The position numbers and the translations under genes were made by a program. Shown in pieces: positions 42,036-50,007 of a stretch of DNA of 64,000 nucleotides (position 1 is the first letter of the stretch; each line of letters opens with the position of its first letter). The notes below the pieces were generated by a model. It had not been told where the DNA came from. It saw only the letters and a program-made list of their open reading frames with translations, and did not search any database. The DNA is taken from positions 124,001 to 188,000 of the forward strand of contig JALGYY010000010.1 of the NCBI GenBank assembly GCA_025782575.1, given 5' to 3'. Source of the stretch: a bacterium (lineage in GTDB: Bacteria > Orphanbacterota > Orphanbacteria > Orphanbacterales > Orphanbacteraceae).

Positions 42036-42068
42036 CGACAGTTTTTGCCAGTCCGGGCGTTTGGTCTA
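42036..42068 (+). promoter_or_regulatory. ECF sigma-type promoter upstream of the Spy/ECF cluster
   Basis: GACAGTTTTT at 42037-42046 and GGTCTA at 42063-42068, 16 bp apart, resemble ECF promoters of the (G)AAC-TTTTT and CGTCTA type. It lies 20 bp before the first gene of the cluster that encodes an ECF sigma factor, which suggests autoregulation. Matched by eye only, and the -35 lacks the usual AAC. Confidence 0.45.
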
Positions 42069-42089
42069 GTGAGAGGAGAAACGGACGGC

Positions 42090-42968
42090 ATGACATATGA
42101 AACGAGCAGGAAAGCGATTCGCCGGGCAGGCTCTCTTATCCTTCTCACAGGGCTTCTCCTGGCATTCGCCGGTTGTGAAAGCTCGGTGAAAATAGCCAGT
42201 ACCTGGTCAAACGGAGAGATTTCGATCGACGGGCTGAAGGATGACTGGAGAGGGGAGTGGACGCATTTCGAGGAGGAACGCATTTCCATAAGCATCCAAA
42301 ATGACCGGCAGGCGATCTACCTGGTTCTCGTGACGGACGAACCGGTCCTCCGTCGACAGCTTGCCATGCAGGGTCTTCGGTTCTGGTTTCATAACGAAGG
42401 AAGCGACAAGCGGTCTCGCGGTGTCCGATACCCGGTGGGCATGGCGGAGATACTGCGAGAAACCGGCGCACCGCCGCCGAAGCCGTACGGAGATCCTTTC
42501 GCCGATGAGAGCTTTCGTGAAGCATTCGACGAATCGCTCACCGAACTCGATATTCTCGGCCCGGATAAAGATGACACCATAAGAATCCGGCTTGCCGATC
42601 TTAACGACGCGGCCATGTACGCCGGGAACCAAAATGAATCCTTCGTTTATGAAATGAAGATTCCCCTACATGCGCCCGAAGGAACAGTCGGATTCGAAGG
42701 ATCCGACGGGAAGTTACGGATCGGATTGGAGACTGTACCGCTTGATTTGGAAAAGATGCGGGCAGGGCGAGGTGAGGGCGGGCGTGGAGGAGGCAGGCCC
42801 GGCAGAGGATTCGAAAGACCTGGTGGTGGCGGGAGGGCGGGCGGCGGAAAGCGGGCGGGCGGAGGTGGCAGAGGCCTGCCTGAGCCGTTCGAGCTATGGA
42901 TCGATGTCACGCTTGCAACTGAACAGACAACAGAGAACTCCCCTGAACTAACCGGAAAAGGAGACTGA
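42090..42968 (+). CDS. CBM9-like lipoprotein with Gly/Arg-rich tail
   Basis: A 292-residue lipoprotein (lipobox LAFAGC near residue 25). The body starts NGEISIDGLKDDWRGEWTHF, echoing CBM9 or DOMON-like domains (DG...DWRG...), and is likely a beta sandwich. Residues about 235-265 are a low-complexity RGG-type stretch (GGRGGGRPGRGFERPGGGGR), then a short ordered end. No function known; the opening is similar to the DUF5916 protein of this window. ATG 42090 follows AGGAG; it is the first gene of the cluster and precedes the Spy gene by two bases. Confidence 0.7.
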   Translation: MTYETSRKAIRRAGSLILLTGLLLAFAGCESSVKIASTWSNGEISIDGLKDDWRGEWTHFEEERISISIQNDRQAIYLVLVTDEPVLRRQLAMQGLRFWFHNEGSDKRSRGVRYPVGMAEILRETGAPPPKPYGDPFADESFREAFDESLTELDILGPDKDDTIRIRLADLNDAAMYAGNQNESFVYEMKIPLHAPEGTVGFEGSDGKLRIGLETVPLDLEKMRAGRGEGGRGGGRPGRGFERPGGGGRAGGGKRAGGGGRGLPEPFELWIDVTLATEQTTENSPELTGKGD

Positions 42969-42970
42969 AC

Positions 42971-43567
42971 ATGAGTAAGCTCAATCACAAACGGGCCAGG
43001 TTTTCGACTCTCGCCGCGGCGGGACTTCTAGCCGCCATACTGTTTGCTTCCCCTGTTTCGGCAGGGCCCGGTATGATGGGAGCCTGCGGGGACGATGACG
43101 GGCTGTTCGGGATGATGTCCGCCCGGCTTGACCTGACACCGGAGCAGACCGCGACGATTCAGGAAATCCGGGACTCTAAACGGGCCGAGCATGCCGATGT
43201 TAAGCGAGAACTCATGAAGAGCCGTAACAGACTTCAGGGTGAGATGCTCGAAGATGAGCCGGACTTGAAGAAGATTCGCAGCATCGCGAAACGCCAGGGC
43301 GAGCTTCACGCACAAATGATGGTCGCTCGGATTGAGACGCGCCTCGCCATTCGTGATGTGCTGACCGATGAACAGCGTGATATGTTTTTCTCGGCCGGAG
43401 TGGGACAGGGTTGTGGCAAAGGGCATGGCAAAGCGTTCCGGGGACGTGGCGGTCAGGGCCCGGAATTCCGAGGCGGCCCGGGACACGGAAGAGGCGGTCG
43501 AGGACAGGGCATGGGACAGGGCGGCCCGCACGGCTTTTCACACGGTGGAAGCAACTGCTGGTGGTAG
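42971..43567 (+). CDS. Spy/CpxP/ZraP-like periplasmic protein with Gly/His-rich tail
   Basis: A 198-residue secreted protein: signal peptide ending VSAGPG, then a helical hairpin with two LTxxQ-type motifs, LDLTPEQTATIQEI and DVLTDEQRDMFF, characteristic of Spy/CpxP chaperones and ZraP. The tail (about 140-198) is Gly, Arg, Gln and His rich and ends CWW. It may bind metals or act as a chaperone for unfolded envelope proteins. AAAAGGAG stands nine bases upstream. A second member lies four genes on in the same cluster. Confidence 0.83.
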   Translation: MSKLNHKRARFSTLAAAGLLAAILFASPVSAGPGMMGACGDDDGLFGMMSARLDLTPEQTATIQEIRDSKRAEHADVKRELMKSRNRLQGEMLEDEPDLKKIRSIAKRQGELHAQMMVARIETRLAIRDVLTDEQRDMFFSAGVGQGCGKGHGKAFRGRGGQGPEFRGGPGHGRGGRGQGMGQGGPHGFSHGGSNCWW

Positions 43568-43575
43568 ACCCCGTT

Positions 43576-43595
43576 TCGCCGGCACGAACCGGCGA
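43576..43595 (+). promoter_or_regulatory. Seven-pair hairpin before the sigma factor ribosome-binding site
   Basis: TCGCCGG-CACGAA-CCGGCGA forms a perfect stem that ends directly at the GAGAGGAAGG ribosome-binding region of the sigma gene. It could limit sigma translation or pause transcription. No T-tract, so not a terminator. Confidence 0.4.
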
Positions 43596-43606
43596 GAGGA
43601 AGGTTC

Positions 43607-44152
43607 ATGACCGATGACGAACTCATGGACCGGCTCGCAAGCGGCGACGAGGGGGCAGCCCGCCTCCTCGTCGAGCGCTGGGAGCGACCGGTGTTCACAT
43701 TTCTCTATCGAATGCTCGGCTCCCGTGAAGAGGCGCAGGATCTTGGCCAGGATACGTTTCTTCGACTTATTCAGCAGGCGGATCGATACAAACCCGAAGG
43801 GCGATTCAAAAGCTGGCTCTTTCGTATTGCGGGTAATCTGGCCCGAAGCACGTTGCGGCGAAGATCGGTCCTGTCGTGGATCGGCTTCTCCCCTGTGGAG
43901 CACGACCTGCCGTCAACGAATCAACAGGCCGACATATCGATGGAACGAGCGGAACTTCAGCAATCCGTTCGACTCGCCATCGACAGACTCCCGGCAAGAC
44001 AGCGGCAGGCCATCCTGCTCCGCACAGATCAGGAATTCTCATACCGCGAGATCGCGGATGTCATGTCCACATCGGTTTCGTCGGTCGAATCGTTACTCCA
44101 AAGGGCCATGTCCAAGCTCCGCCAGGAGCTGAAAGACAAGAGGCTGTCATGA
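43607..44152 (+). CDS. ECF sigma-70 family RNA polymerase sigma factor
   Basis: A 181-residue group 4 sigma factor. Region 2 spans about 20-90 (YRMLGSREEAQDLGQDTFLR, FKSWLFRIAGNLARS) and region 4 about 120-175 (LPARQRQAILLRTDQEFSY, EIADVMSTSVSSVESLLQRA, the -35 recognition helix-turn-helix). No region 1 or 3. The stop codon overlaps the anti-sigma start by ATGA. It probably controls the cluster in which it sits, because a matching promoter lies upstream. Confidence 0.92.
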   Translation: MTDDELMDRLASGDEGAARLLVERWERPVFTFLYRMLGSREEAQDLGQDTFLRLIQQADRYKPEGRFKSWLFRIAGNLARSTLRRRSVLSWIGFSPVEHDLPSTNQQADISMERAELQQSVRLAIDRLPARQRQAILLRTDQEFSYREIADVMSTSVSSVESLLQRAMSKLRQELKDKRLS

Positions 44153-44592
44153 GTGATCGTCACAAAAATCATGTGGAGCACGAACTACAGGCCTGGCTGG
44201 ACGGAGAGATCGGGAAAGCCGACCGGGAGCGAATCGAGGAGCATCTCGATCGGTGTGAGCGTTGTGCGGAGACGGCCGGCGCGATGAAAGAGATTCTGCG
44301 ATCGCTCACCGTCGATGGAGATATTCCACTCCACCGTTCGATGTGGCCCGGGATTCATGAGCGACTATCCCGATCGCCCGGTCCTCGTATCGGTTTCGGG
44401 TTCGGCCTCGGAGCTTCGGCTGTCGCCACAGCCGGCTTGCTGATCGGCATATTGATCGGCGGCGGCGGCGCTCCCCCTCCGGCGAATACGAACAGCGATC
44501 TATTGAGCGCAGGCTCCTATTTCGAGTACGACGAAGCGACCACACTCGATGAAATCTATCTGTTCACCTCCGGGAATGGAGACGAATCATGA
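44149..44592 (+). CDS. Zinc-binding anti-sigma factor (ZAS-type), membrane anchored
   Basis: A 147-residue protein with the ZAS motif HLDRCERC near residues 32-39 (H-x3-C-x2-C), which holds Zn2+ and binds the ECF sigma factor. A transmembrane helix at about 80-105 (GASAVATAGLLIGILIGGG) places the short C-terminal part outside the membrane. It is coupled to the sigma gene by ATGA and to the following Spy-like gene by another ATGA. An open frame extending upstream is the shadow of the sigma gene. Confidence 0.88.
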   Translation: MSDRHKNHVEHELQAWLDGEIGKADRERIEEHLDRCERCAETAGAMKEILRSLTVDGDIPLHRSMWPGIHERLSRSPGPRIGFGFGLGASAVATAGLLIGILIGGGGAPPPANTNSDLLSAGSYFEYDEATTLDEIYLFTSGNGDES

Positions 44593-45152
44593 AAAGGGCC
44601 TGGTTCTTACTTCTGGCTCTTTCCGTCGGTTTGAACGGCGGCCTAATTTATGAAAAACTCTCCGGCCGTTCGGACGGTCCCGGCCCCGGTATGGGGACAC
44701 CCAGGGAAACGGGACCTCGATTAGGACCACGCTTTCATCCCGACGGACCTCCGGGGTTCATTCGTGATCGAATGGGGCGGATCGGAACCAGGCTCGGCCT
44801 GACCGATGCACAACGTGAGGAAATGGCCTCCGTGCTCGGGGAGAAGATGCCGGCCCTGATCGAACAGCGCCGGAAAGTCGATGAAGCACGAAATGCACTT
44901 CGCAAAGAGTACTTGCGTGGCAATATCGATGAAGCAGGTGTTCGCGCCCAGGTACATCTGATCAATCAGTCGCAGTCCAGGCTCGATTCGCTCGTTGTGG
45001 AGACCATGCTTGGTGAAGTGTCTGTTCTGAACCCCGAGCAGCGAGCCGCCTATCTCGAGATGATGCCATGGGACCGCGGACCACATGGTCCCGGCAAAGG
45101 GGGAAGAGGTTTCGCCGGCCGTGGGTTCGGCAGGGATCCGGGGAAACGTTGA
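44589..45152 (+). CDS. Second Spy/ZraP-like periplasmic protein
   Basis: A 187-residue protein with an uncleaved or cleaved N-terminal hydrophobic segment (AWFLLLALSVGLNGGLIY), a Gly/Pro-rich linker, and a helical hairpin with LGLTDAQREEMAS and VLNPEQRAAYLE, the LTxxQ pair of the Spy/ZraP family. Residues about 160-187 are Gly/Arg rich. It might signal stress to the anti-sigma factor, because it is translationally coupled to it. It converges on hypE with 23 bp between. Confidence 0.8.
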   Translation: MKRAWFLLLALSVGLNGGLIYEKLSGRSDGPGPGMGTPRETGPRLGPRFHPDGPPGFIRDRMGRIGTRLGLTDAQREEMASVLGEKMPALIEQRRKVDEARNALRKEYLRGNIDEAGVRAQVHLINQSQSRLDSLVVETMLGEVSVLNPEQRAAYLEMMPWDRGPHGPGKGGRGFAGRGFGRDPGKR

Positions 45153-45175: not shown

Positions 45176-46231
45176 TCAGCAGATCCGAGGGAGCTGTTCT
45201 CCGCTCGGAAGATCGACGATCCTCTCCATGCCGATTTCGGTCTTCATCACTACCGACGCGCACCCTCTGGGCAAGACATGTCCGACCATGCACGCCTCTT
45301 CCCCACCCGGATGGGATCGTAGAATTTCGATCGCTCTATCCCCCTGACCGGCAGGCAGGACGATGAGAAACCGGCCTTCATTGGCAATGTGGATTGCATC
45401 GAGACCGAGCATTTCGCACGCTCCCTGAACCTGTTCATTGACAGGAATCGACTTCTCGTCGAGCACGAACGTCGACGCCGACGTGCCAGCGATCTCGTGT
45501 ACGGCGGCGCCCAGCCCCCCCCTCGTCATGTCTCTCATACAATGGATATCAAGCCCGTCATCGAGCAGCGCCCGAACAGGATTCACAAGTGACGCGCAGT
45601 CGCTGACGATTTTCGTTTCGAATTCGAGCCCTTCTCGCGTCGCCATGATGGCGATCCCGTGGCGACCAATATCACCGCTTACAATCAGGACGTCACCCTC
45701 ACGAACCGAAGCGGGGCCGATTCTCTTCCCGCTGTCCACCACCCCGATACCGGTCGTGTTCAGATAGATCCCGTCCCCTTTTCCGTTTTCGACGACTTTG
45801 GTGTCCCCGGTGACGACGGCCACTCCTGATTCGTCTGCCGCGCTCCGAATGGAACGGACTACCTCCCATAGGATTTTCATGGAGAGGCCCTCCTCGAGAA
45901 TGAGGCCGAGGCTGAGCCAGAGTGGTCGCGCCCCCGCCATGGCAAGATCGTTCACGGTTCCATAAACACCGAGACAACCGATATCGCCCCCTGGAAAGAA
46001 GAGCGGACTCACCACAAAGGAATCCGTTGTCATCGCAATGCGCCGCCCGGGAAGATCGATCAGTGCGGCGTCGTGCCGCTCCCGAAGTTCGGGATCGTCG
46101 AACGCGGTCAGAAACATCTCCCCGATAAGGTCGTTCATCAGGCGGCCACCGCCGCCATGGGCCATCGTGACCACCGTATAGCGATCAAGGGGAATCGGGC
46201 AGACAGCCCCTTCCAGACTCACACGTTTCAT
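45176..46231 (-). CDS. hypE: Hydrogenase maturation protein HypE
   Basis: A 351-residue PurM-like ATPase that dehydrates a carbamoyl group on its C-terminal Cys to cyanide for the NiFe active site. [18 protein letters not shown] begins near residue 23, ATP-binding [17 protein letters not shown] follows, and the protein ends PRIC, the carbamoylated cysteine. ATG 46231 overlaps hypD by ATGA; an upstream in-frame extension is a shadow of hypD. Last gene of the hydrogenase operon. Confidence 0.96.
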
Positions 46232-47358
46232 GGCGCTTCCTTCGCGGCTGTGGCGTGGATTGCCTGTTTCCCGTTCGCCCCCCGGTAACGGTAGTATGCC
46301 GCACAGGCTCCTTCGGAGGAGACCATCGGAGCTCCAAGTGGGCGCTCGGGAGTACATTTCGCGCCGAACGCGGGGCATTGGTGGGGTTTTTTCACGCCCC
46401 GCAAAATGTGACCGCTAATACAGTCGGGAGATTCAGGCGCGACGGTTTCGGTAAGTTCAAAGCGCCGCTCGGCATCATACCGGGCATAGTCCGGTCGGAG
46501 TACGAGTCCGCTCAGAGGGATCTCGCCGATTCCCCGCCATGCTCGGTCCGCCACCTGAAAGACCTTTTCCAGAAGTTCGATCGCCCTCTGATTCCCGGCT
46601 TGACTGACGGCGCGTCTGTATTGGTTTTCGACGGTTGCGCGGCCTTTTTCGAGCTGGCGCACACAGAGCAGAATACCGTGGAGAATGTCCGCAGGTTCGA
46701 ACCCGGTAACGATGATCGGCACATTGTATTTCTTCGCAATCGGAAAATACTCGTTGTAACCCATGATCGCGCAGACATGACCGGCGGCAAGGAACCCCTG
46801 CACTCGATTCTCTTCGGCGCCCAGGATCGCCTCCATCGCGGGCGGAACGAGAACGTGGGAGACCAGCAACGAGAAGTTGGCGAGATCCATGCGGCGCGCC
46901 ATTTCAACGGCCAGTGCGATTGCGGGGGCCGTCGTTTCGAATCCTACAGCGAAAAAGACGACCTCCCGTCCCGGGTTCCGCTCTGCTATGCGAACGGCGT
47001 CGAGAGGGCTGTACACTGTACGAACATCGGCGCCCGCCGCCTTGACACCGAGCAGGTCCTTCTCCGATCCCGGCACGCGAAGCATGTCGCCGAAGGAGCA
47101 GAGTATCACTTCCGACCGTCCCGCTATTTCGATCGCCTTGTCGATCTTTTCAATGGGAGTGACGCAAACCGGGCAGCCGGGGCCGTGAATGAGTTCCATG
47201 CCGTCAGGGAGCAGCTCATCGATTCCGTATTTCACGATCGTGTGGGTCTGGCCGCCGCAGATCTCCATGATCTTCCATGGCCTGGTCGCCGCCTGCCGCA
47301 ACGCGTCCGCGTATTGATGAACCAACCCGGCGTCTCTATACTCGTCGAGATACTTCAA
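46228..47358 (-). CDS. hypD: Hydrogenase maturation protein HypD
   Basis: A 376-residue iron-sulfur scaffold that assembles Fe(CN)2CO with HypC and Hyp[15 protein letters not shown] and [17 protein letters not shown] contain the conserved cysteines, and [20 protein letters not shown] is the family core. The C-terminal CX..C pair appears in [19 protein letters not shown]. It begins with TTG 47358 overlapping the hypC stop, preceded by GGAGGAG. Confidence 0.96.
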
Positions 47359-47612
47359 GAGGGATCTCCTCCCCCCCGCTGCTCGATTTCTCCCATTTCC
47401 TCTAGATAGGAGTAGACAAGCATCGCCTCTTCTTCGTCTATCACGCTGATGGCAAGTCCCACATGGACAAGAATATAGTCCCCCACTTTCGCTTCCGGTA
47501 CGCAGGCCAGGCTGACCTCTTTCCGGACGCCGCCGAAAGAGACTTTACCGGTCGGCATGATCGGATCGTCATCGCTTCGCTCTTCGAGCCTACCCGGGAT
47601 AGCGAGACACAC
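47355..47612 (-). CDS. hypC: Hydrogenase maturation chaperone HypC
   Basis: An 85-residue chaperone; after removal of the initiator Met the essential N-terminal Cys is exposed: MCLAIPGRL. The start is a GTG at 47612, because the family must begin Met-Cys and AAAGGA stands six bases before it; longer upstream frames are antisense-frame shadow. [15 protein letters not shown] is the conserved C-terminal part. It overlaps the hypF 3' end by 23 bp and hypD by four. Confidence 0.93.
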
Positions 47613-50007
47613 TGTATTTCCTTTCATCATCAACTGTCGCCGCGACGGCCCACGCCTGCCCCGCTGCAAGGCCACCGTCATTCGGCGGGATGCGCCGGTG
47701 CGTCCATACATGAAAACTGCTGTCACGAAGATCCGCTTCAACCATCTCACTTAAGATTCTGTTCTGGAAACAGCCGCCCGTGAGCACCACATCCCTTCGA
47801 CCCGCGACTTCCGCCATGGCCACAGCTGCGGCTGCAAGTGTCTTGTGCCAGCACGCCGCCATCAGTGCCGTTTCCTCTCCACGTGCAATACCCGAGATCA
47901 GGGCATCGATTGCAGGCCCCCAATCAGCCACGTGCAAATCCTGGTGGTCATCCGGCCCCGAGTATCCCGTTCGCGGGTAAAGCGGGATCGGATAGGCTTC
48001 CACTTTCGACAGGGCGACATTGGTGGCGGCAAACTCCAGTTCCATTGCCGCCTGACCTTCGAAGGTCACATTATCCCTGATCCCGAGAAGGGAGGCGACG
48101 CCGTCGAAAAGGCGTCCCACAGCCGACGTATTCGGCGCATTCACGTCATAGTTCAGCATCGCCTCAATAACACGCCAATCTTCCCCTACGAATTCCTTCA
48201 GGAAGGGGTTGTCGAGGAGAGCTTCACCGAGATGCGTGTACAGTATGCCGAGCGCGCTTCTCTTCGGCTCCCGTATTGCCGCATCGCCGCCGGGGATCGG
48301 GAATGACCGGAAAGTCGCAATCCTCGTGAAACTGCCGCGCGTGGCGCACAATCCTTCTCCGCCCCAGATCGTTCCGTCGCTCCCCATGCCTGTACCGTCC
48401 CATGACAGGCCGAACACCTCACCGAACAGCCCGTTCTCGAGCATGCAGGAGACGACGTGCGCGTGATGGTGCTGAACGGTGTGAAGCGCGCTTTCGCTTT
48501 CCTTTGCTGTCAGCGATGATGAATAGTCAGGGTGCTGGTCGGACGCCGCAATTTCCGGGTTCACCTGATATACCCGTCGGAGATCTTCCGCGGTACGATA
48601 ATGCAGCTTCCGGCTCTCGAGAGCATCGAGGTCGCCCACATGCTGGGAGAGGATCAGGTTGCCACCTGCCCGAAGAGCGATGGTGTTCTTCATCTGGCTG
48701 CCGAAGGCCATGATCACGTATTCTTCGGCGCCGCCCACGGGAATCGTAACAGGGGCGTAACCTCTTGCCGACCGGATCGTTACCGGACGCCCGGCAATCA
48801 CACGTACAACAGAGTCATCAACCGGTCTCAGGATCGGGCGGTTATGCACCAGATAGATATCAGCGACTCCGTCAAGGCGTCGGAACGCTTCTCGTCGTTC
48901 AATACAGATCGCTTCGCCTGACAGGTTTCCACTGGTAGCGATCACAGGACCGCCGAAATCCCGTAGTAGCAATTCATGAAGAGGCGAATAGGGAATCATG
49001 ACACCCAGATTCGGATTGCGGGGAGCCACTTCTCTTACAACGCCGATCGTTCCCGGGCGGCGGGGCACCAGAACGATCGGTGACTCCGGACCGAGAAGCA
49101 GCTCCTCTTCCAGTTCCGAAAGCAGAACGTCATTTCGAGCCTCGTCGATTCCGGGATACATGACCGCAAATGGCTTATCGGGGCGCCATTTCCGGATGCG
49201 GAGCTCCGCCACCGCTTCGCCGTTCCGGGCATCTGCGAGGAGCTGAAATCCCCCGATCCCCTGAAGAGCGACAATCCGACCGTCCCGTATCGCATTGACC
49301 GCGATTTCGAGCGCCGCTTCGTCCCGTTCCATCACATGACTGTAAGAGTCACATGCCTCGATGTGAGGCCCGCACACGGGACATGTCATCGTCTGGGCAT
49401 GGTGCCGCCTGTCATCGGGATCCGCGTATTCCTCATGGCACTCCGGGCAGAGAGGGAAGTTCTTCATCACCGTGGTCTCTCGATCGAACGGCAACTGATT
49501 AAGAATGGAATAGCGCGGACCGCAGCGGGCGCAACTGATAAAGGGATATCGATACCGCCGGTCATCCGGGTTGAGGAGTTCGTTGCGACAGTCTTCACAG
49601 AGGGCGAGATCGGGAGTGATCCAGGCACTCCGGAGACCGTCGGCCGAACTCTCCTCGATACGGAACCGGTCAGAACCGCGTATCGCCTCGTTCTGAACAT
49701 CCGATTCATGAATGAAGGATCGATACTCACCAGTCTCCAGAAGCTCTCGCCGGAATGCGTGAACCGACTGCGCAGTCCCTTCGATCTCTATTCGAACGCC
49801 CCTGACGGTGTTCCGAACAGATCCGGTCACCTGGTGATTCCGCGCCAGATGGGAGATATACGGGCGAAATCCGACACCCTGGACAATGCCCCGCACGATA
49901 ATCGCGAGCCGTTCCTGCCGGAGCCCCGATCGCCTGTCTGATCCTGGTAGCTTCAAAGAGGGGAACTGCTGGGGGCTGCGTTTCCTGGTTGTCTGCTCTT
50001 CACACAT
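47590..50007 (-). CDS. hypF: Carbamoyltransferase HypF
   Basis: An 805-residue enzyme that supplies carbamoyl groups to HypE for cyanide ligands. The N-terminal acylphosphatase domain reads VRGIVQGVGFRPYISHLA; four zinc-finger CxxC pairs follow (CEDCRNELL, CARCGPRY, CPECHEEY, CPVCGPH); then a YrdC-like domain (about 230-420) and a Kae1/NodU-like domain with HHHAHVVSCMLENGL and GLSWDGTGMGSDGTIWGGE. HyaD-type protease overlaps its start. Confidence 0.96.
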   Translation of the reverse strand: MCEEQTTRKRSPQQFPSLKLPGSDRRSGLRQERLAIIVRGIVQGVGFRPYISHLARNHQVTGSVRNTVRGVRIEIEGTAQSVHAFRRELLETGEYRSFIHESDVQNEAIRGSDRFRIEESSADGLRSAWITPDLALCEDCRNELLNPDDRRYRYPFISCARCGPRYSILNQLPFDRETTVMKNFPLCPECHEEYADPDDRRHHAQTMTCPVCGPHIEACDSYSHVMERDEAALEIAVNAIRDGRIVALQGIGGFQLLADARNGEAVAELRIRKWRPDKPFAVMYPGIDEARNDVLLSELEEELLLGPESPIVLVPRRPGTIGVVREVAPRNPNLGVMIPYSPLHELLLRDFGGPVIATSGNLSGEAICIERREAFRRLDGVADIYLVHNRPILRPVDDSVVRVIAGRPVTIRSARGYAPVTIPVGGAEEYVIMAFGSQMKNTIALRAGGNLILSQHVGDLDALESRKLHYRTAEDLRRVYQVNPEIAASDQHPDYSSSLTAKESESALHTVQHHHAHVVSCMLENGLFGEVFGLSWDGTGMGSDGTIWGGEGLCATRGSFTRIATFRSFPIPGGDAAIREPKRSALGILYTHLGEALLDNPFLKEFVGEDWRVIEAMLNYDVNAPNTSAVGRLFDGVASLLGIRDNVTFEGQAAMELEFAATNVALSKVEAYPIPLYPRTGYSGPDDHQDLHVADWGPAIDALISGIARGEETALMAACWHKTLAAAAVAMAEVAGRRDVVLTGGCFQNRILSEMVEADLRDSSFHVWTHRRIPPNDGGLAAGQAWAVAATVDDERKYSVSRYPG

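Follow-up and report, generated by a model that had tools for sequence, protein, structure and literature searches.

Results

Proteins with the Spy fold have mostly been described as chaperones or as accessory proteins of two-component systems, and CnrX is the studied example connected with a sigma factor of the extracytoplasmic function (ECF) type. We have examined an operon of a bacterium of the family Orphanbacteraceae in which an ECF sigma factor and its anti-sigma factor are encoded together with two Spy-like proteins, here called SPY1 and SPY2. The operon lies in a 64,000-nt stretch of DNA (the window; contig JALGYY010000010.1 of assembly GCA_025782575.1, positions 124,001 to 188,000), and coordinates are positions in the window unless another locus is named; genomes and loci used for comparison carry G and L numbers. 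As the initial annotation had proposed, five genes follow one another on the plus strand, namely those encoding a lipoprotein (42090..42968, 292 aa), SPY1 (42971..43567), the ECF sigma factor (43607..44152, 181 aa), the anti-sigma factor (44149..44592, 147 aa) and SPY2 (44589..45152, 187 aa). The proposed spacing was also confirmed: 2 bp separate the lipoprotein gene from SPY1 and 39 bp separate SPY1 from the sigma gene, after which ATGA overlaps join the sigma gene to the anti-sigma gene and the latter to the SPY2 gene.

The sigma factor matches the Pfam families Sigma70_r2 (3.9e-18) and Sigma70_r4_2 (5.3e-17), that is, it contains sigma-70 regions 2 and 4 only, and its tree position, described below, also identifies it as an ECF sigma factor. 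The anti-sigma factor matches zf-HC2 (3.5e-9) and carries, within its helical N-terminal domain, the Hx3Cx2C motif of the class I zinc-type (ZAS) anti-sigma factors at H32, C36 and C39. Its single transmembrane helix is followed by an extracytoplasmic tail of 44 aa (44458..44589, plus strand) ending in a conserved motif, here TTLDEIYL.

The two Spy-like proteins are of different kinds. SPY1 matches PF13801 (Metal_resist) and PF07813 above the curated cut-offs (2.3e-14 and 5.9e-14; 54 and 53 bits) and has a typical cleavable signal peptide ending in FASPVSA, followed by GPG, so that by sequence it is a soluble periplasmic Spy/ZraP-like protein; its best sequence matches in the Protein Data Bank (PDB) are ZraP and Spy, and its hooked hairpin is assigned by sequence. 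SPY2 also scores above the curated cut-offs (39.3 and 26.9 bits for PF13801 and PF07813; 8.5e-10 for PF13801), and the Spy-like proteins match the NCBIfam models of Spy, CpxP and ZraP below the model cut-offs. The N-terminus of SPY2, MKRAWFLLLALSVGLNGGLIYEKL, lacks a cleavage motif and is thus predicted to form an uncleaved anchor; SPY2 is not a Spy protein in the strict sense, which would be soluble with a cleaved signal. PF13801 has exactly two matches in the whole 4.88-Mb genome, SPY1 and SPY2, and since both belong to one operon their pairing is not due to chance.

An AlphaFold2 model of SPY2 built with 40 homologues (pLDDT 82) comprises an anchor helix that includes Asn16 (residues 2-25; 44592..44663, plus strand), a disordered linker and, at high confidence, a hooked hairpin of four helices (residues 55-69, 73-109, 115-144 and 149-158; 44751..45062, plus strand), in line with the Spy-like hairpin supposed in the initial annotation. 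Foldseek matched this model to Spy, CnrX, NccX, CpxP and ZraP with a probability of 1.00 and E-values of only ~0.02-0.07, the domain being small and helical. Comparison of the SPY2 sequence profile with the PDB retrieved Spy (2e-8) and CnrX (5e-6), and also NccX and ZraP.

Association of SPY2-type proteins with the sigma/anti-sigma pair was analysed in a combined set of loci, obtained partly by a search with the sigma factor alone, which carries no bias toward Spy genes (80 named loci), and partly from genomes in which loci were chosen on PF13801. A Spy-like gene was found within 1.3 kb downstream of 53 of the 105 sigma ORFs. A maximum-likelihood tree placed 41 of the 42 triads with an anchored Spy protein in one clade of 47 rows (support 95/93), and all ten rows of the subclade that contains the sigma factor of the window (support 100/98) have an anchored Spy protein. 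Throughout this ECF clade the Spy-like gene stands right after the anti-sigma gene in 42 of 46 members, often with ATGA coupling. Anchored Spy proteins were present in at least seven named phyla (Krumholzibacteriota, Fibrobacterota, Bacteroidota, Chlorobiota, Pseudomonadota, Myxococcota and Thermodesulfobacteriota). Linkage in the subclade and across phyla supports the initial annotation to the extent that the SPY2 gene is a conserved partner of the sigma/anti-sigma pair. One clade member that had been scored as Spy-less (L075) has an anchored Spy gene behind an inserted gene, and three members (L087, L102 and L095) are truly devoid of a Spy gene. CnrH falls inside the clade on a very long branch, and the bootstrap of the tree was not fully settled, so that its placement is only a hint. 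An acetolactate decarboxylase-like gene (L075:5595-6374) is inserted between the sigma and anti-sigma genes of L075.

A link of the cassette with a MacAB-TolC-type efflux regulon (L033, L040, L059, L068 and L164) was considered and rejected, because no enrichment was found in the sigma-selected set (0/29 versus 2/50). MacA/MacB/TolC-type transporter genes lie beside the cassette at L164:1-8224, L068:4152-9150 and L033:8789-14410.

Gene order was conserved both within the family and beyond it, as the proposal of the initial annotation requires. Within the family, the order SPY1-sigma-anti-sigma-SPY2 is kept in G001, G004, G006, G005 and the second of two G002 loci, and the first G002 locus reads sigma-anti-sigma-SPY2. 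Two of these loci, that of G005 and the second one of G002, encode SPY1 in the form of a lipoprotein and an anti-sigma factor from which the zinc motif has been lost. No match to the Spy profiles was obtained in G003, another genome of the family. Outside the family the four-gene order recurs in G031, G213 and a Krumholzibacteriia locus (L072). G064, G007 and G142, which are also outside the family, have another order, given below with the lipoprotein, and the operons of G007 and G142 contain a small extra gene. As separate observations, the cassettes L230 (G002 contig C7) and L231 (G005 contig C2) lie near genes resembling dnaN and dnaA, a position close to the likely origin of replication, and a small conserved protein of ~78-96 aa containing HITTDDL.FSAYLK.KG.RLIKSDQKKSKA is encoded inside the operon of two distant genomes (L041:7081-7317 and L164:6257-6547).

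The distance from the anti-sigma stop to the Spy start is exactly -4 (ATGA) in 22 of the 53 cases, and no more than ~15 bp in most others. Outer tails of the anti-sigma factors measure 23-62 residues across clade members (median ~40). With only ~44 residues of the anti-sigma factor of the window outside the membrane, SPY2 probably provides the sensor domain, in the way that CnrX does for CnrY. A C-terminal motif is common to the zinc-type tails: when a profile was built from 13 of them, five of eight held-out tails, taken from other genomes, each outscored at least 297 of 300 shuffles (combined p 8e-7). A tail motif drawn by hand was discarded; it matched 16 of 21 sequences of its source set, compared with a shuffled mean of 3.2, and two of nine new sequences as drawn or five of nine when Ile was allowed. 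Forty-two of the 53 first downstream Spy genes, an unselected set, encode an intramembrane Asn in the anchor, and Asn16 is invariant in the 40-sequence alignment, which had been pre-selected for that residue. A similar membrane-helix Asn is present in 13 of 21 non-zinc anti-sigma factors versus one of 21 zinc types, a split that may correspond to two modes of pairing with the anchor of the Spy protein.

When loci were selected on PF13801 only, 12 of the 15 Spy proteins flagged as anchored were encoded after a sigma gene; the remaining three were a misread signal peptide, a protein at a contig end and one encoded after a zinc anti-sigma gene with no sigma gene beside it. Apparent anti-sigma-Spy fusions at L116 and L117 proved to be an artefact of first-start-codon choice and are really separate overlapping genes. 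At L051 (8080-9230, minus strand) a zinc-type anti-sigma gene overlaps an anchored Spy gene and no sigma gene is adjacent; for this orphan pair the sigma factor must act from elsewhere.

We compared SPY2 with the metal-binding site of CnrX, whose ligands we take to include H42, H46, E63 and H119. M123 is also a ligand (PMC7689651). Alignment with CnrX placed M62, G66, L83, T139 and E143 of SPY2 at the positions of H42, H46, E63, H119 and M123, respectively, so none of the five ligands is present and a metal stimulus becomes less likely for SPY2. The HxxxH pair is missing throughout the group. In 13 of 40 relatives the column of H119 holds His, which leaves room for metal sensing in some branches. 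We conclude that SPY2 probably does not read nickel or cobalt in the manner of CnrX.

The motif CGCTGG-N16-CGTTNNG was found upstream of SPY1 in six sister operons (G001, G004, G006, G031, L072 and the second G002 operon), the last of which was detected by a genome scan and had not been used to define the motif. Versions with one mismatch occur in G213 and at the first G002 sigma gene, and no shuffle reached the full motif score. In G001, G002, G004, G006 and G031 the operon site is the sole promoter-like match among 4-7 per genome, the rest lying inside large ORFs as judged by simple ORF calls, with a few overlaps with spurious reverse-strand ORFs remaining. The regulon of the exact motif would thus be essentially the operon itself, and the sigma factor probably controls mainly its own operon. 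The exact sister motif is absent from the operon of the window, and versions with two mismatches are no more frequent in the window than expected by chance. A possible, unproven promoter, CGACAG-N16-CGTTTGG (42036..42064, plus strand), has the 16-bp spacer and the CGTT element of the sister motif and scores at background.

For the lipoprotein, the ATG at 42090, with GAGGAG just upstream, is a likelier start than 42036 or 42045. A Pfam search with the protein gave no match. Its AlphaFold2 model (pLDDT 75) best matched CBM9 modules (top hit 7nwo, 2e-5) and DOMON-like haem subunits, the gamma subunit of ethylbenzene dehydrogenase and dopamine beta-hydroxylase being also among the best hits, with TM-scores of just 0.3-0.45. 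The label "CBM9-like" given initially is therefore fair, although with such TM-scores a true CBM9 fold is only a possibility. PF06452 was detected in one of 11 lipoprotein homologues (0.0014) and not in the protein of the window. The initial annotation had also attributed Gly/Arg- or Gly/His-rich tails to the lipoprotein and both Spy-like proteins. This is right for SPY1, whose C-terminal tail is rich in Gly, His and Arg, and for SPY2, whose tail is rich in Gly and Arg; the Gly/Arg-rich stretch of the lipoprotein is an internal loop (approximately residues 225-262) that precedes the last beta strand. Lipoprotein homologues occur in 11 genomes, including that of the window, and in three of the other 10 (G064, G007 and G142) they belong to the same operon, in the order sigma-anti-sigma-SPY2-SPY1-lipoprotein; homologues also exist away from the module. 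Being first in the operon of the window and last in those three, the lipoprotein gene is able to join the module on either side. After the operon, genes similar to the hydrogenase-maturation genes hypE, hypD, hypC and hypF occupy positions 45176-50007 on the minus strand, in convergent orientation.

Discussion

The results make it fairly probable that the operon is a self-contained switch responding to envelope stress and operating in the manner of CnrYXH, with SPY2 as its sensor; the contact between the proteins, the direction of the signal, the ligand and the role of the lipoprotein are elements that we infer. In unstressed cells, the single-pass zinc-type anti-sigma factor would keep the ECF sigma factor at the membrane. 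Its outer tail would be too short for sensing, and SPY2, anchored alongside, would supply the sensing hairpin, with the tail motif and the membrane helices as its probable points of contact with the anti-sigma factor. The ligand of SPY2 would most likely be unfolded, exposed protein of the envelope or some other signal of damage, a metal being possible and less likely. Binding of the ligand would change the contact and release the sigma factor, which would then transcribe its own operon and yield more SPY1, acting as a soluble chaperone, lipoprotein where present, anti-sigma factor and SPY2, closing the loop.

SPY2 could also be merely a coupled chaperone, and several results weigh against the proposed switch. 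The promoter candidate of the window operon itself is at background level; the tail motif as initially drawn was derived with the data in view and failed on new sequences, so that only the profile test held; the invariance of the anchor Asn came from an Asn-filtered alignment, the unfiltered figure being that of the first downstream genes; and clade members of Hymenobacter and Desulfobacula have no Spy gene, which indicates that this gene can be dispensable. A corresponding alternative, unlikely in our judgement, is that SPY2 is an output of the switch, a tethered chaperone, and that the anti-sigma factor is triggered by regulated proteolysis of its outer tail in the style of RseA or RsiW. In favour of this, the spy that is co-transcribed in Phocaeicola vulgatus was interpreted by the authors of that work as a protective chaperone (PMC13114119), autoregulation of the operon turns all its genes into targets, and there is another group in which a secreted protein is the first Spy behind the pair (for example, Prevotella L122). 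However, proteins of the SPY2 type are anchored and, from phylum to phylum, are encoded next to the anti-sigma gene, a further Spy of the secreted kind is often encoded before or after and would make a second chaperone redundant, the anti-sigma-Spy pair persists without an adjacent sigma gene (L051), and no protease gene is found among the conserved members.

That SPY2 is a true metal sensor, as the database name "periplasmic heavy metal sensor" implies, acting through the Gly/His-rich tails or a new site, seems quite improbable. CnrX and NccX are among its closest solved relatives, the SPY1 tail is His-rich and some relatives keep His in the H119 column, but the replacement of all five CnrX ligands in SPY2, the lack of HxxxH across the group and an operon with no metal-efflux gene argue against it. 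Least credible of all, and close to negligible, is a fortuitous gathering of unrelated genes in one lineage. The absence of Spy-profile matches in G003 and of the lipoprotein from the operon in other relatives would fit such a gathering; the order conserved in G001, G002, G004, G005, G006, G031, G213 and the Krumholzibacteriia genome, together with the cross-phylum clade, already refutes it for the sigma/anti-sigma/SPY2 core, though not for the lipoprotein.

A broader and more tentative proposal, less likely than not, is that the operon represents an ancient cross-phylum ECF class in which an anchored Spy domain recognises unfolded or damaged envelope protein by binding it as a chaperone binds its client, and signals to the anti-sigma factor through a polar membrane-helix residue and the short outer tail; CnrYXH might then be a later, metal-specialised offshoot. 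The three-gene switch looks like a widespread, little-studied signalling system. Should anchored Spy proteins do the sensing in a broad ECF clade, many of the proteins annotated as "periplasmic heavy metal sensor" may respond to a different stimulus, and a stress-sensing mechanism would be common to at least seven phyla.

In the open papers searched, we found no account of anchored Spy proteins as a type of their own, of their distribution along one ECF clade or of the absence of the CnrX metal site. The initial annotation had presented linkage to an ECF pair as an alternative signalling route for Spy-like proteins; such a route is not without precedent, given CnrX (PMC7689651) and cirYZ-spy (PMC13114119). 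CnrX, which has the Spy fold, serves as the sensor for an ECF/anti-sigma pair (PMC7689651), and CnrYXH is the closest known system to the operon of the window. Like NccYXH, also of Cupriavidus metallidurans, it combines an ECF sigma factor, a single-pass anti-sigma factor and an anchored Spy-fold protein in overlapping or abutting genes. In contrast, CnrY is a class II anti-sigma factor without the zinc motif, whereas that of the window has zf-HC2; the gene order is Y-X-H instead of sigma/anti-sigma/SPY2; the CnrX anchor lacks an Asn such as Asn16 of SPY2; and metal-efflux genes are missing from the window operon. In P. vulgatus, a spy gene is co-transcribed with the ECF/anti-sigma pair cirYZ; the operon, spy included, is under the control of CirY itself and is strongly induced in the inflamed gut, as reported in 2026 (PMC13114119). 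Co-transcription and autoregulation are thus shared features, but the authors present that Spy as a chaperone controlled by the sigma factor and not as a sensor (PMC13114119), the role proposed here for SPY2. An operon of Azospirillum brasilense, RpoE8-hypothetical protein-"periplasmic heavy metal sensor" (PMC12826043), follows the same three-gene pattern as judged by gene names only. Finally, Escherichia coli Spy, CpxP and Salmonella ZraP share the hairpin fold and the LTxxQ motifs with the Spy-like proteins of the window; they are secreted and tied to two-component systems, whereas SPY2 has a membrane anchor and is linked with an ECF pair.

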